From: Verrucomicrobiota bacterium
GTDB lineage: Bacteria > Verrucomicrobiota > Verrucomicrobiia > Chthoniobacterales > Xiphinematobacteraceae
Assembly: GCA_023269545.1 (NCBI GenBank)
Contig: JAHFTB010000001.1
Location: forward strand, 1 to 64,000
DNA length: 64,000 nt
Direction of reading: 5' to 3'
The notes beneath the pieces are model-generated. The model saw only the letters and a list, made by a program, of their open reading frames with translations. It had not been told where the DNA came from and made no database searches. The position numbers and the translations under genes are program-made. Positions 234 through 46,468 of the stretch are shown in pieces (positions within the stretch are counted from its first letter, which is position 1; each line of letters opens with the position of its first letter).

Positions 234-330
234 TTATTAACTGACATTATGCACTTTGAGAAGCCCTGGGAGCAAAAAAACCATTTTAGCCTACAAGGTT
301 TCTCTTTTTTGCGTCACATCACTTATTAAC
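234..330 (-). repeat. Family A fold-back element with 8-bp duplication
   Basis: An 81-bp unit (242-322) is flanked by the direct repeat TTATTAAC at 234-241 and 323-330. The unit carries the family A core: GGGAGCAAAAAAACC, then a 14-nt spacer, then GGTTTCTCTTTTTTGC, ending GTCACATCAC. The two A/T runs can pair to form a hairpin. Unit length and duplication size match the other full copies in the window, so this is probably a mobilised non-autonomous element. No transposase is present in the window. Confidence 0.8.
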
Positions 331-2520: not shown

Positions 2521-4119
2521 TTATTCGAGATCTCCGCAGAAGGATACCTGCATGCCTAGTTCTTGCATTGTGGCAGCCTTGACTTTGAGTCCATGGATGG
2601 CTTCTTCTTTTCCGGGAGTATAAACTACGTGAATATGATTGGATTTGTGACGCGCCATCATTTGATCACGGTTAATGCCAGGTAATACAGCGTGAAGAAT
2701 GGGCCATTGTGACGTGGTAAGATTCCAACGTTCTTCAGTTTCCTTTGCTGGCAATTCCACTGCCTGCAAGAGACCCGTATCATAAGCTAATTTTCCATCT
2801 TCGATATAGATGCGACTCCATACCAGCCACCCGGGTTTGGAAACTCCCTTTACGGTGCTCCCCCCTAGACGGAAATACATCGCAGGCTGTCTTTCACCCG
2901 TAGCTTCAGCCCAGCCCTTTGCAAAATGCGCGGGAGGCACACTTCCGGAAATTAATAATACCCAGACATAAGCATCGAGTTTTTCGTCCCGATAGTGCCG
3001 TCCCCATCGGAGATCATGCAGAGTATTTTCAGGCGGATAGCCTAGTTTGCGCCAGAGGTGATAAGTCACGAGCCCGTCCAAACCTGCACATTCATCCACT
3101 TCGTTAAAGTGAGGGAGAGCTTCTCCCAGAAAAAGTTCACGTCCATCTTCGGAATAAACGGGCGGCCGGTCGACATTATTAAGGGTGCCCTCAACAAGAT
3201 CGGACGCTGGGGTCAGATCCGTCAGTCCAAGCTGATATTGGATACCAATCGTCCCGCAGCCAAACTGATCGGCCAAACGAACTGCCGCAATATACATTTT
3301 ACATTGCTGGAGAATTTGCTGTTCGGTGAGATCTGATTCTTCATTGGTTCCCAGCTGGAATTTCATTCCTTTTTTGAGATACCATTCGTATGTGGCGCGC
3401 GCCTCATCATCCTTCACTGTCAGCATTTTAGCATAGAGGGTAGATTGACTCAGACGCTCTTTGAAGACTCCTGTCTGATGTAACAATTCATCGGGAATAA
3501 TAGCATTGTACATCCCCATACAGCCTTCATCAAAAACGCCCATGATGACTTTTCTCCTTTTAAGGTCGCGTGCAAATTCCACTCCAATCTTTTCCGTAGT
3601 TGCAGGCACTTTTCCCTGTTCGTAGGAACGAATGTGTGATTGATCGTGTTTTACGACGCCGTTTTTCAGCCATTCGCGCAACCCTTTTACAAAGAATTCG
3701 TCGGTAAAATCTTCACTCCAGAGGGAGCTAAATTTTACACCCGCCTTAGTCAAACTGGCATTTAAGTTTAATAATCCCACCAAACCCGGCCAAGTACCAC
3801 TCCAGTTGGCGATGGTCAAAATGGGTCCTCGATGGGACATCAAGCCGGCAAGAACATGGTTACTGTACATCCAGACCGCTTCAGCAACGATGAGCGGGGC
3901 ATCCACCGGAATTTTCTCGAATACTTCCATTCCAAACTTCTGGCTGTCGATAAAACCGTGCTGCTTAACGGGATCGAATGGGTGGGCGCGTTGCAGAGAG
4001 CAACCTTCCTTTTCAACAGCTTTAACAATAAGAGTTTCCATAGCCGCTTGAGCAGGCTGGCAAACACGGTTTGCAGAGAGGCGTACATCTCCATTAGCAA
4101 CCAGATAAATAGTTTTCAT
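2521..4119 (-). CDS. L-fucose/L-arabinose isomerase-like protein
   Basis: The 532-residue product resembles the fucose/arabinose isomerase family, which interconverts aldoses and ketoses in the cytoplasm with a divalent metal. The N-terminal Rossmann-like domain (residues 1-170, starting MKTIYLVANGD) contains the segment GPILTIANWSGTWPGLVG, typical of fucose-isomerase-like proteins. The middle part carries acidic residues in VFDEGCMGMYNAIIPDE, and the C-terminal domain ends in the substrate-binding region. It is slightly shorter than classical FucI (about 590 aa). No fucose kinase or aldolase is adjacent, so the substrate is unknown. The gene is convergent with the upstream orphan and its 5' end faces the 5' end of alr. 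I am confident of the superfamily but not of the sugar. Confidence 0.75.
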   Translation of the reverse strand: MKTIYLVANGDVRLSANRVCQPAQAAMETLIVKAVEKEGCSLQRAHPFDPVKQHGFIDSQKFGMEVFEKIPVDAPLIVAEAVWMYSNHVLAGLMSHRGPILTIANWSGTWPGLVGLLNLNASLTKAGVKFSSLWSEDFTDEFFVKGLREWLKNGVVKHDQSHIRSYEQGKVPATTEKIGVEFARDLKRRKVIMGVFDEGCMGMYNAIIPDELLHQTGVFKERLSQSTLYAKMLTVKDDEARATYEWYLKKGMKFQLGTNEESDLTEQQILQQCKMYIAAVRLADQFGCGTIGIQYQLGLTDLTPASDLVEGTLNNVDRPPVYSEDGRELFLGEALPHFNEVDECAGLDGLVTYHLWRKLGYPPENTLHDLRWGRHYRDEKLDAYVWVLLISGSVPPAHFAKGWAEATGERQPAMYFRLGGSTVKGVSKPGWLVWSRIYIEDGKLAYDTGLLQAVELPAKETEERWNLTTSQWPILHAVLPGINRDQMMARHKSNHIHVVYTPGKEEAIHGLKVKAATMQELGMQVSFCGDLE

Positions 4120-4224
4120 CAGGGTAATTCTTTTTTAATCTGTATTGAAAGGACTTACAGGAACACCGCAAAGCCTTCCTTTACAGAGGAAAAAATCCTA
4201 ATATATAACTTGTCGGCTGACAAA

Positions 4225-5325
4225 ATGTTTCGAAGTTGGACGGAAATACGCTCGGATTTTTTAAAAACGAATTTGAAGGAACTTCGCTCGCAACTTCCAT
4301 CGAATTGTGGGGTGATAAGTGTCTTAAAAGCAAATGCCTATGGCCACGGGGCAGTTGAAGTTGCCACCGCTCTAAAAACTGACTCCCAAGCCTTTGCCGT
4401 GGCTTGTCTCTCCGAAGCTCTCACCCTTCGACAATCAGTTCCGGATCGCGACATCTTCATTTTGGGTCCTTCCGTCCCCACGGAACGCGGAGACGTGGTA
4501 AAGAATGGTTTCATTCCAACTGTTTCCTCCGCGGAAGAAGCCACTGAATATGCACAATATGCCGGTTCCCATCGTATCCGCATCAGTGTGAAAATTGACA
4601 CTGGCATGGGAAGAATAGGAATTTGGCAAGATGATGCCCAAGCTGGCCTTGAGGCCATTTCACGGCTGCCCGCAATATCAGTTCATTCTATCGCAACCCA
4701 TCTCCCTTCGGGGGACAAAGATCCTGTGTTCAGCCAGCAACAATTAGAGTGGATGCAGAAACACAGCGATGCTTTTCGCAAACTCTTCCCCGGCGTCCTC
4801 CTCCATGCATTAAATAGCGCCGGAATTCTGGAGTTTCCTCACTATGCCTTTGACTTAGTTCGACCCGGATTGGCGCTTTACGGCATTGCCTCTCCTCGAA
4901 AGCATCAACACCGACTCAAACCCGTATTATCTTGGAAAGCGCGCGTCATCAATGTTCGTGATGTCAACAAAGGACGCAGTATCAGTTATGGCCGAACTTA
5001 TATCACCTCTAAGCTTTCCCGTTTGGCCACTCTCTCAGTGGGTTATGCGGACGGATACCCCTTGCAACTCTCCGGCAGCTCCGCATATGTTTTGATTCAT
5101 GGACATCGTTGTCCGGTGGTAGGATGCATTACTATGGACCAAACTATTGTGGATGTGTCCGAGCATCCTACGGTTTCTCCGGGTGACGAAGTGGTTTTGA
5201 TCGGGGAGCAACAGGCGGAAAAGATTACTGCATTCGATGTCGCAGACTGGGCAAACACGATTCCTTGGGAAATTCTGACGCGTATTCACCGAAGAGTCAG
5301 ATGCGTATTTCTACCCTTGTATTAA
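4225..5325 (+). CDS. alr: Alanine racemase
   Basis: This is a PLP-dependent enzyme converting L-alanine to D-alanine for peptidoglycan. The PLP-binding lysine is Lys35 in the motif VLKANAYGHG. The (alpha/beta)8 barrel follows, with the second catalytic base Tyr in VGYADGYP and the conserved GCITMDQTIVDVS segment in the C-terminal beta domain. The chosen ATG gives 366 aa, the usual family length. The open frame runs 131 codons further upstream, but that part overlaps the divergent sugar-isomerase gene and lacks family similarity. The stop is followed immediately by a family A element, which separates alr from manA. Confidence 0.95.
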   Translation: MFRSWTEIRSDFLKTNLKELRSQLPSNCGVISVLKANAYGHGAVEVATALKTDSQAFAVACLSEALTLRQSVPDRDIFILGPSVPTERGDVVKNGFIPTVSSAEEATEYAQYAGSHRIRISVKIDTGMGRIGIWQDDAQAGLEAISRLPAISVHSIATHLPSGDKDPVFSQQQLEWMQKHSDAFRKLFPGVLLHALNSAGILEFPHYAFDLVRPGLALYGIASPRKHQHRLKPVLSWKARVINVRDVNKGRSISYGRTYITSKLSRLATLSVGYADGYPLQLSGSSAYVLIHGHRCPVVGCITMDQTIVDVSEHPTVSPGDEVVLIGEQQAEKITAFDVADWANTIPWEILTRIHRRVRCVFLPLY

Positions 5326-5414
5326 GTGATGTGACGCAAAAAAGGGAAACCTTGTAGGCTAAAATGGTTTTTTTGCTCCCAGAGCTCCTCAAAGTGCATA
5401 ACGTCAGTGATTAA
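5318..5414 (+). repeat. Family A fold-back element
   Basis: An 81-bp unit (5326-5406) starts GTGATGTGACGC directly after the alr stop region and ends ACGTCA. Inside are GCAAAAAAGGGAAACC and GGTTTTTTTGC, which can pair. ATTAA occurs at both flanks at the 89-bp spacing seen in the other copies, a partly decayed duplication. Confidence 0.8.
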
Positions 5415-10670: not shown

Positions 10671-11022
10671 AGGGCCGATTTCGGTATCTGGCTAGTGTCA
10701 TCCATCGGACAGACTGCATTTTATTTACTCCTGAGATTCTCCAATTTTTACGTTCTGTTTCCGTAAGTTTCATCACTCAGGAGGCTCGGATTCACATCTT
10801 TTGCCATATCTTTTATAACTGCCGTTAGGCATTTTTAGGAGCTCTGGGAGCAAAAAAACTATTTTAGCCCACAAGGTTTCCCTTTTTTGCGTCACATCAC
10901 TTTTATAACTGACGTTACGTATTTTTAGAAGCTCTGGGAGCAAAAAAACCATTTTAGCCCACAAGGTTTCCCTTTTTTGCTCACATCACTTTTATAAGAT
11001 CAAATCTGTTTGGCGGCCTCCA
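10671..11022. other. Intergenic region occupied by tandem A repeats
   Basis: This gap between the TPR gene and the periplasmic chaperone gene contains two tandem family A units (10811-10997). The remaining 140 bp on the TPR side show nothing I recognise. An open frame of 63 codons through the repeats is an artefact of the duplicated sequence. Confidence 0.6.
10811..10997 (-). repeat. Two tandem family A elements sharing an 8-9 bp duplication
   Basis: Units at 10820-10900 (81 bp) and 10910-10989 (80 bp) are separated and flanked by TTTTATAA (10811-10818, 10901-10908, 10990-10997). Both have the same core, CTCTGGGAGCAAAAAAAC then CCCACAAGGTTTCCC, ending CACATCAC. They differ by a few substitutions and a missing G in the second. 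Three copies of the target sequence fit either insertion of a second element into the duplication made by the first, or unequal recombination between duplications. Confidence 0.85.
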
Positions 11023-12547: not shown

Positions 12548-12574
12548 TATAGCGAAACCGGTATAAAATGAGCA
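12548..12574 (+). repeat. Family D end
   Basis: TATAGCGAAACCGGTATAAA followed by ATGAGCA lies just upstream of the SurA/PpiD-like gene. This is the intact version of the sequence that is split by a family A element at 46.4 kb, and so serves as the empty-site reference for that insertion. Confidence 0.75.
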
Positions 12575-12708
12575 TACATTTTCCTGGAATTTTTGATTCC
12601 AGCGAGGCGCAAAATAGAGGCCATATCTGAAGATACAGGCTTTAACGACACCTCTGCCTATTTCGGTTCCTTCGATTCTATGCCTCGTGCTATGGCGACC
12701 ACTCATAT

Positions 12709-19622: not shown

Positions 19623-19636
19623 GTTCGAATTTACCC

Positions 19637-19695
19637 AGGACTTACGCAGATTCCGGAGAAAAGCTCGCTCGTTTTCCTCTGTTTTTGCGGAAGTC
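19637..19695. repeat. Family B element
   Basis: It begins AGGACTTACGCAG and ends TTTTTGCGGAAGTCT, an inverted repeat of about 12 bp with mismatches. The inside carries GAAAAGCTCGCTCGTTTTCC, which is shared (in either orientation) with the other B copies. It abuts the C copy that follows. Confidence 0.7.
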
Positions 19696-20549: not shown

Positions 20550-20612
20550 CAGAACTTACGCAAAAACAGGGGAAACCCAGCAAGTTTTTCTTCGGAATCT
20601 GCGTAAGTCCTG
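20550..20612 (+). repeat. Family B element
   Basis: CAGAACTTACGCAAAAACAG at the left and TCTGCGTAAGTCCTG at the right form an inverted repeat of 12-13 bp with one mismatch. The loop region matches the other B copies in part (GTTTTTCTTCGGAA). Confidence 0.75.
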
Positions 20613-22842: not shown

Positions 22843-22902
22843 GGACTGACGCAAAAATAGGGGAAAACGAGCGAGCTTTTCTCCGGAGTTTGCGTAAGTC
22901 CT
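22843..22902 (+). repeat. Family B element with flanking AAAGAT
   Basis: GGACTGACGCAAAAATAGGG at the left and GTTTGCGTAAGTCCTG at the right are inverted ends. The inside is GAAAACGAGCGAGCTTTTCT. AAAGAT stands directly before (with one extra base) and after the element, compatible with a short target duplication. Confidence 0.75.
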
Positions 22903-22907
22903 GAAAG

Positions 22908-30886: not shown

Positions 30887-30905
30887 GTGATGTGACGCAA
30901 AAAAG
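30887..30905 (+). repeat. Truncated family A element
   Basis: GTGATGTGACGCAAAAAAG, the left 19 bp of the A unit, with no right half. It stands at the border of the recD-like relic. Confidence 0.6.
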
Positions 30906-32951: not shown

Positions 32952-33015
32952 AGGACTTACGCAAAAACAGGGGACCCCAAGCGAGCTTCGCTATAGCGAA
33001 ATCTGCGTAAGTCCT
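32952..33015. repeat. Family B element with internal D-type end
   Basis: AGGACTTACGCA at the left and TGCGTAAGTCCT at the right are perfect inverted repeats of 12 bp. The interior CGCTATAGCGAA contains the TATAGCGAA end of family D, suggesting recombination between families or a common origin. Confidence 0.8.
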
Positions 33016-33067: not shown

Positions 33068-34867
33068 TCACGCCTTCTTCAGGCTGAGTTTGTAGCCCTT
33101 AAAACGCGTGCCCCCCATCTTTTTAAGAACGTCGGCTACATGCTCGGTAGCGATATCTATCAAAGCGGTCTTGGGAAAAAGGTGAATGGCACCAATGTGA
33201 TTGCGATCCAGTTGGGTGGTTCCCAGAACCATTCCGACAATATCGCCGGGACGAATGCGATGTTCACGGCCGACATTCATAGAGAGGCGGGTCATTCCTT
33301 CTTCATGTGAAATGTGGCTCATTTTACTTTTATCCGAAGAGGCGCGATCCTTGCGCTTACCTTTCCCCATATCCTCCTTACCGTCGTCCTCTTCCTCGTG
33401 AATTTCGGTACGGCTTTCCGGATCTTCAGGATTAAGAAAGTGAATCAAGGCGGAGGCAATATCCGTCGGACTATGCCCTTGATCCAGAAGGCGTTCAATG
33501 AGTGCATCCTGACGTTTATATTTTCCGCTCTCCAAAGTTTCGCGCAGAGACTCAAAAAAAAGATTGGCTCGTTTTTCTTCCACTTCTTCCATTGAAGGAA
33601 CACGCTCGCGACGAATTCGGCCTTTTGTAAAGCGAATGATATTTTGTAGTTTATAAATTTCACGACCGGCAACAAATGTGACTGCTTTTCCAGCTCGTCC
33701 AGCTCGCCCGGTTCGTCCGATACGATGCACATAATCCTCCCCATCGTGAGGGAGATCGTAATTGAAAACAATTTCGATATCGTCCACATCCAGTCCACGA
33801 GCCGCGACGTCTGTTGCGACGAGAAATTCAAAACCGCGCTTGCGAAATTTAGCTACCACACGTTCGCGCATGTGTTGAGAAATGTCGCCATGAAGTTTGT
33901 CCGCCGAATAACCGCGAGCCACAAGATGATCGACTAATTCATCTACCATCATTTTTGTAGCGCAAAAAATAATGCCCAATTTCACATCGTGTAAATCGAT
34001 CAAACGACACAGAACCTCCAATTTGGAGCGCCTATCCACTTCGTAATAAACCTGATCAATCGCCGGAACGGTCAATGCCTGCGCTTCTATACGTACTCGG
34101 ACAGCATCATTGGTAAATGTATGGACTAATTCGAGAATGGGTCGAGGAAGAGTGGCAGAAAACAGGACCGTCTGTCGCTTTTCGGGAACTTGGCTCAACA
34201 CCTTCTTGATGTCATCCAAAAATCCCATGTCGAGCATGCGATCAGCTTCATCGAGAATCACCGTGCGAATTTCCTCTAACTTGAGTGAGCCGCGTTCAAG
34301 ATGATCCATCACACGCCCCGGCGTTCCAATAATGATCTGAGCACCTGCCTCTAGTCCTCGGAACTGTCGCTCGTAAGATTGACCACCGTAGATGGGAAGT
34401 TCGCGAACTCCGCGCTTGAAAGTAGCCAGTTTGGCCACTTCTTCCGCCACTTGCACTGCCAGCTCACGAGTGGGACACAAAATGAGGACCTGTGGAGCGC
34501 GCAGGGAAGCGTCTACCCTTTCAATAGCAGGAATTGCAAAAGCAAGGGTTTTTCCTGATCCAGTTTGGGACTGTCCCACAACGTCTCGGCCTTCTAATAA
34601 ATAGGGAATAGCCTGAGATTGGATAGGGGAGGCCTCCTCAAAACCCAGGCGATTGATAGCTTTGAGGACGTCCGGCGACAGACCGAGTTCAGTGAAAGGC
34701 TTTTTCTGCACTGGATGACTATACCAATCAAATGGCTTTAGCCAATGAGAGATTGAGGACTCCTTCTTAGGCGAAGATTCCCTATCACTTCTTTTGCAGA
34801 ACTTCCGCAAAAACAGGGGAAAACGAGCGAGCTTTGCTCTATTGCATAGCGACAATTCCCCATTCAT
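33068..34867 (-). CDS. DEAD-box RNA helicase, DeaD/CsdA-like
   Basis: An ATP-dependent RNA helicase of the DeaD/DbpA group. The Q motif is in FTELGLSPDVLKAINRLGFE near residue 58; SQTGSGKT, PTRELAVQVAEE, ILDEADRMLDMGF, LFSATL, ATDVAARGLDVDD and HRIGRTGRAGR follow. The C-terminus is a DbpA-type RNA-binding domain (about 520-599, with HLFPKTALIDIATEHV and TRFKGYKLSLKK). The annotated ATG (34867) falls in or beside repeat sequence: residues 11-24 are coded by a truncated B element (34798-34840). The ancestral start is probably further in, perhaps the GTG in HPVQKKPF; no other ATG exists between. Confidence 0.9.
   Translation of the reverse strand: MNGELSLCNRAKLARFPLFLRKFCKRSDRESSPKKESSISHWLKPFDWYSHPVQKKPFTELGLSPDVLKAINRLGFEEASPIQSQAIPYLLEGRDVVGQSQTGSGKTLAFAIPAIERVDASLRAPQVLILCPTRELAVQVAEEVAKLATFKRGVRELPIYGGQSYERQFRGLEAGAQIIIGTPGRVMDHLERGSLKLEEIRTVILDEADRMLDMGFLDDIKKVLSQVPEKRQTVLFSATLPRPILELVHTFTNDAVRVRIEAQALTVPAIDQVYYEVDRRSKLEVLCRLIDLHDVKLGIIFCATKMMVDELVDHLVARGYSADKLHGDISQHMRERVVAKFRKRGFEFLVATDVAARGLDVDDIEIVFNYDLPHDGEDYVHRIGRTGRAGRAGKAVTFVAGREIYKLQNIIRFTKGRIRRERVPSMEEVEEKRANLFFESLRETLESGKYKRQDALIERLLDQGHSPTDIASALIHFLNPEDPESRTEIHEEEDDGKEDMGKGKRKDRASSDKSKMSHISHEEGMTRLSMNVGREHRIRPGDIVGMVLGTTQLDRNHIGAIHLFPKTALIDIATEHVADVLKKMGGTRFKGYKLSLKKA
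34798..34840 (-). repeat. Truncated family B element in the helicase 5' end
   Basis: AGAACTTCCGCAAAAACAGG then GGAAAACGAGCGAGC, the left two-thirds of a B element. The right end has been lost. It is read through by the helicase frame. Confidence 0.7.
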
Positions 34868-37752: not shown

Positions 37753-37849
37753 CTTAAAATTTAAGGTTACGCAAAAAAGAGAACCCTGGTGGATGAAAAT
37801 GGTTTTTTTGCTCCCAGAGCTCCTCAAAGTACGTAACGTCAGTTAAAAT
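37753..37849 (+). repeat. Family A fold-back element
   Basis: The unit 37761-37841 carries GGTTTTTTTGCTCCCAGAGC and a left part degraded at its first bases (TTAAGGTTACGC). Flanking 8-mers CTTAAAAT and GTTAAAAT differ by one base. The element lies between leuA and the GT4 gene, upstream of both. Confidence 0.75.
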
Positions 37850-37869
37850 TATAAAATAGGCAGAGACCG

Positions 37870-46352: not shown

Positions 46353-46468
46353 GCTCATTTTATACCGGTGATGTGACGCAAAAAAGGGAAACCTTGTAGG
46401 CTAAAATGGTTTTTTTGCTCCCAGAGCTCCTCAAAGTGCGGCATATCAGTGATACCGGTTTCGCCATA
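46353..46468. repeat. Family A element inserted in a family D copy
   Basis: The sequence splits a D copy in two: its one half (46353-46369, TGCTCATTTTATACCGGT) lies before, and the other (46452-46468, ATACCGGTTTCGCCATA) after an A unit starting GATGTGACGCAAAAAAGGG. The 8-mer ATACCGGT occurs at both junctions. Without the insert the sequence restores the D end seen intact at 12548-12574. This shows that A transposes with 8-bp duplication and inserted after D. Confidence 0.88.

Follow-up and report, generated by a model that had tools for sequence, protein, structure and literature searches.

Does the sequence at positions 10811 to 10997, where an 8-bp string recurs around two copies of a short repeat, record the insertion of a mobile element, and if so, what moved it? 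The locus lies in a 64,000-nucleotide stretch of DNA from a Verrucomicrobiota bacterium (here, the window). The window belongs to contig C42; the genome assembly comprises 59 contigs, measures 2.55 Mb, and is 98.4% complete. TTTTATAA is present three times and alternates with one 82-bp and one 81-bp copy of the repeat, designated family A. The initial annotation had described two A units between three identical 8-bp repeats, and this arrangement is confirmed; its claim of a constant unit size also stands, although the units measure 81 to 82 bp rather than the 80 to 81 bp given there.

The DNA examined for further copies comprised the window and 120 stretches around family A cores and ends (numbered with the prefix L), together 484 kb; the 190 bases read from the start of contig C53 (L298) are N throughout. 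A profile search of the 484 kb returned 168 family A matches, approximately 150 of them near full length. Both flanks could be analyzed for 149 of the 168, the others being truncated copies, interrupted copies, or copies next to the boundary of a stretch, and an apparent extra copy in L244 represents the same place as the copy in L133 and was counted once. Across the whole genome, the family A core was matched 112 times with up to 3 mismatches, compared to 0 times for a reversed control pattern, and an initial search using the full unit yielded 182 candidates, only part of which were scored. There are about 150 or more insertions of family A in this bacterium’s genome. Family A occurs at many loci and is not embedded in a longer conserved unit, an outcome that supports the initial annotation: no longer unit with family A ends was detected in the 484 kb, save for copies interrupted by other sequence. 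One interrupted copy lies near a 33-base tandem repeat (GGCTCACCGAAAAAATAGCCCAGGTGGAAATAG; L127:1860-2244).

The consensus of family A, CTGACGTTACGCACTTTGAGGAGCTCTGGGAGCAAAAAAACCATTTTAGCCTACAAGGTTTCCCTTTTTTGCGTCACATCAC, is 82 bp long and has no coding capacity. Its termini are imperfect 12-bp inverted repeats, CTGACGTTACGC and GTGATGTGACGC (the latter read on the opposite strand), which are identical at 9 of 12 positions (the ends are also given as GTGATGTKACGC and CTGACGTKACGC). Copies diverge from one another by 9.1% on average, and the median difference from the nearest neighbor is 2.6%, which indicates that some copies spread fairly recently.

Six family A copies, including the tandem pair, and one solo end are located in the window (Table 1), and a 19-mer from the family A core matches it six times, compared to 0.20 matches expected in shuffled sequence. 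The single copies reported earlier near 234-330, 37753-37849, and 46362-46459 are all real, but the list was incomplete, as the copy at 5326-5407 had been overlooked. The duplications assigned to these single copies required revision. The 8-bp TTATTAAC at 234-241 and 323-330 is a 7-bp duplication, because its eighth base on the left is the first base of the element. A duplication is indeed present at 46362 and 46452, but ATACCGGT takes in two bases of the element end; in the register of the family, the duplication is 8 bp with one mismatch. For the copy near 37753-37849, the one-mismatch duplication is replaced by an exact 8-bp one (TTAAAATT on the + strand, at 37754-37761 and 37843-37850), and it is the right end of the element that is damaged. 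The window also contains members of a second palindromic-ended repeat family, CAGGACTTACGCAAAAACAGGGGAAAACGAGCGAGCTTTTCTCTGGAATCTGCGTAAGTCCTG (∼63 bp), which matches the examined DNA at 26 places.

Table 1. Family A copies, their target duplications, and a second repeat family in the window
Feature	Position	Strand	Remark
Left target duplication TTATTAA	234-240	.	Read in the sequence
Family A copy, 82 bp	241-322	+	Profile match
Right target duplication TTATTAA	323-329	.	Read in the sequence
Family A copy, 82 bp	5326-5407	-	Abuts alanine racemase stop codon 5323-5325 (gene 3832-5325)
Target duplication TTTTATAA, first copy	10811-10818	.	Exact match to the other two
Family A copy 1 of tandem pair, 82 bp	10819-10900	+	nhmmer match 1-82, E 7e-26
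Target duplication TTTTATAA, second copy	10901-10908	.	Exact repeat
Family A copy 2 of tandem pair, 81 bp	10909-10989	+	nhmmer match 1-82, E 1.3e-23
Target duplication TTTTATAA, third copy	10990-10997	.	Exact repeat
Solo right end, GTGATGTGACGCAAAAAAG on + strand	30887-30905	-	Apparently truncated family A copy
Family A copy, right end damaged	37762-37842	-	Exact 8-bp AATTTTAA flanks
Family A copy, 82 bp	46368-46449	-	Duplication CGGTATCA/CGGTATAA
CAGGACTTACGCAAAAACAGGGGAAAACGAGCGAGCTTTTCTCTGGAATCTGCGTAAGTCCTG repeat family	19636-19695, 20551-20612, 22843-22903, 32952-33015, 34798-34840		

The target duplication had been taken to be a constant 8 bp; genome-wide, it is mainly 7 bp, and the tandem pair in the window, unlike the majority of family A, belongs to an 8-bp minority. 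Exact 7-bp repeats flank 59 of the 149 copies (39.6%), compared to 1.5% of shuffled pairs (maximum, 5.4%), and exact 8-bp repeats flank 8.7% of the 149, compared to 0.2% after shuffling. When up to 2 mismatches are allowed, the best-fitting duplication is 7 bp in 111 copies and 8 bp in 23 (∼15%). Tallies of the flanks on both sides give the palindrome TTANTAA as the target, so that the insertion sites are AT-rich and TTANTAA-like.

To look for empty sites, the two flanks of every copy were fused, a single duplication being retained, and the product was compared to all fetched DNA. The joined flanks of the copy at L073:2043 match L287:1373-1500 (128 bp, 98.4%) with no gap, and the empty site in L287 has a single TGAATAA, reading GAGCTGAATAAGATG, versus GAGCTGAATAA-element-TGAATAAGATG at the filled site; the two loci are copies of a duplicated genomic stretch, with family A present in one and absent from the other. 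In a second case, the copy at L108:1481 lies inside a member of another repeat family, of which the copies in L075 and L103 are without family A. The empty sites are direct evidence that family A inserted, and with them, the proposal of a constant-size unit inserted with target duplications at many loci is upheld. A third repeat family, containing TATAGCGGAATTCC, was observed at 12548-12628 of the window, L075:2490-2570, and L103:4011-4091, with family A inserted into one copy.

Family A is therefore very probably a MITE, 82 bp long and transposable but non-autonomous, as the initial annotation held on the strength of the constant unit and the duplications, to which the empty sites are now added. 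It is a short, non-coding unit present at many loci, its terminal inverted repeats are recognizable if imperfect, and it is flanked by target duplications of mostly 7 bp.

The arrangement at the window locus recurs elsewhere. At seven loci, two or three family A units follow one another, separated by the duplication, and all nine adjacent pairs in these seven arrays are in the same, head-to-tail orientation. At the six loci outside the window, array mates are among the closest 0 to 11% of all pairs, and several arrays share private variants, e.g., GAGCTCAGGG or CATCCC. Because of the private variants common to mates and the uniform orientation, the likeliest explanation of the arrays is local duplication rather than repeated insertion into one target. 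The window pair differs by 6.2%, a value in the 21st percentile for pairs overall, and is not specially close. This would suit an origin by two separate insertions, with the duplication made by the first serving as a preferred target for the second; TTANTAA-like duplications are themselves good targets, and the window has 24 TTANTAA sites. We regard this origin as rather unlikely, since a palindromic site should accept both orientations, yet every adjacent pair points the same way, and private variants are common to mates in the other arrays. By analogy with the other arrays, local duplication is the likelier origin of the window pair as well. The arrays would arise after insertion, when the unit of element plus duplication (∼89 to 90 bp) is duplicated locally, probably by replication slippage between short direct repeats.

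The left junction shows an asymmetry that a clean duplication does not explain. Two bases before the left end, 14 copies have C where the right-hand counterpart has A, and the reverse holds in 2; the recurrent C-for-A left junctions (e.g., at 5408-5410 and 46450-46452 of the window) occur in unrelated copies. The cut may therefore be 5 to 6 bp plus AA, or 7 to 8 bp. If the real duplication were 5 to 6 bp, the element would start with AA or CA on the left, and the AA on the right would reflect target preference, which would explain part of the asymmetry. This is in keeping with the A found immediately before the left end in 147/149 copies (versus 139 at the matching right position) and with the 16 informative cases, in 12 of which CA on the left is paired with AA on the right. 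A CA belonging to the element would, however, predict a subfamily. The CA copies do not cluster by body sequence, are more diverse than random sets, and in no case have another CA copy as nearest neighbor, which counts against the shorter duplication; moreover, TTANTAA is palindromic around a 7-bp stagger, whereas TTANT is not palindromic. We consider the 5- to 6-bp duplication unlikely. The idea of CA as an inherited subfamily mark was discarded because the CA copies are unrelated in body sequence.

An insertion sequence with family A ends, for which the initial annotation had suggested looking, was not found in searches with six transposase families (DDE_Tnp_1, ISL3, IS66, IS256, IS1595, and IS982-type) or at contig ends. 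The PF01609 (DDE_Tnp_1) elements of the genome are IS5-like and ISAs1-like, labels that were read from their ends and sequence. ISL3 is represented by degraded transposase genes and IS66 by two loci; a transposase of IS256 is absent from the genome. ISL3 and IS66 insertion sequences duplicate 8 bp. Since the family A duplication is mainly 7 bp, the earlier argument from an 8-bp duplication for IS66, IS256, or ISL3 as the source loses its force, and no family A ends were found around the IS66 and ISL3 genes or remnants present here. Derivation from IS1595 was rejected because no resident transposase matched, and derivation from IS982 because the sole PF13612 matches are two IS5-like PF01609 loci with ends CTAGAGCGTGTTATGAAC. 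Contigs C35, C39, and C55 (L281, L285, and L306) end in the same element, IS3-like by our own reading, whose terminus, GTGATGTGTCTTTGAAATTG, matches the family A right end at eight bases; as only these first eight bases are common, we read the match as coincidence and rejected this element as the parent. The family C repeat (CAGGACTTACGCA...TGCGTAAGTCCTG) was rejected as a relative, as it has no common interior and no comparable duplication was seen. Possible reasons are that the parent has been lost, that it falls within a gap of the assembly, or that it belongs to a family other than those searched (e.g., IS1, IS6, or IS21). It is improbable that the mover represents an undescribed transposase family, defined by a 7-bp duplication at TTANTAA and by A changing recurrently to C at the left junction.

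Almost all copies are located between genes. Outside open reading frames of at least 120 amino acids lie 139/150 copies, compared to 136/990 random positions (86% of random positions fall inside such frames), and 54/150 copies are within 30 bp of a stop codon, compared to 19/136 random intergenic positions. A frame of at least 100 codons has its stop in the TAA next to the left end in 13 cases and in the codon next to the right end in 5. TTANTAA holds a TAA stop on each strand, so insertion at a gene’s own TAA stop codon can spare the gene. Copies may be kept between genes by selection or by a preference for AT-rich intergenic DNA. The surrounding genes are co-directed in 88 cases, divergent in 31, and convergent in 23, a mixture that would not be expected of a terminator. 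Predicted folding carries little weight in either direction, being slightly better than that of shuffled sequences on the minus strand (z -2.0) and unremarkable on the other (z -1.2), and an Rfam search of the window returned no match. A repeated extragenic functional element, such as a terminator, a regulatory RNA, or a REP-like palindrome, that owed its spread to selection rather than mobility would account for the intergenic location, the enrichment near stop codons, and the minus-strand folding, but is very improbable given the insertion documented by target duplications and empty sites, the copies in all gene arrangements, the ordinary folding of the other strand, and the negative Rfam search. 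Family A resembles the REP elements that are associated with RAYT transposases in being short, intergenic, and high in copy number; REP elements make no target duplication, and family A does.

The distribution of family A is narrow. In a survey of 38 genomes, namely, that of the window and 37 relatives, matches were confined to a single further genome, a member of the same genus, where they are partial and decayed (79 to 93% over ∼29 to 47 bases, some keeping the terminal bases). No copy was found in two 0.9-Mb, one-contig genomes of this genus. The exact core was not found in a collection of species genomes or in viral contigs, similarity searches of plasmids and phages returned nothing, and the open-licence literature yielded no paper with the string TTANTAA and no description of family A. 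The nearest named sequence to the methionyl-tRNA synthetase is from an Amazon metagenome Verrucomicrobia MAG (79% identity), and a Xiphinematobacter genome has been reported to contain little repetitive DNA (PMC4607532). The best parallel that we found is MITECca01 of the symbiont Cardinium cOegib, an element of ∼240 bp that has 169 copies and stems from a resident IS982 element (PMC9769881). Like family A, it is gene-less, inverted-repeat, mostly intergenic, and lineage-specific; family A differs in its 82-bp length (a third of that of MITECca01), in its occurrence in Verrucomicrobiota, and in that no IS982 parent was found, the two having been compared by description. The most fitting classification of family A is as a new MITE family, of an already known kind, with its parent not found in the searches made.

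Under the proposed mechanism, a DDE transposase acting in trans would bind the 12-bp ends and cut the target with a 7-bp stagger centered on the palindrome, and gap repair would leave the duplication; the source insertion sequence would have been lost, have diverged, or have been missed. A target compatible with stop codons and arrays seeded by duplications are neat, if unsurprising in principle, and family A, though real, is mobile DNA of an ordinary kind. It has been successful as a MITE in its Verrucomicrobiota genus. Two one-contig genomes of 0.9 Mb belong to the same genus, which allows a 2.5-Mb genome carrying about 150 or more copies to be set beside strongly reduced relatives in which no copies were found.
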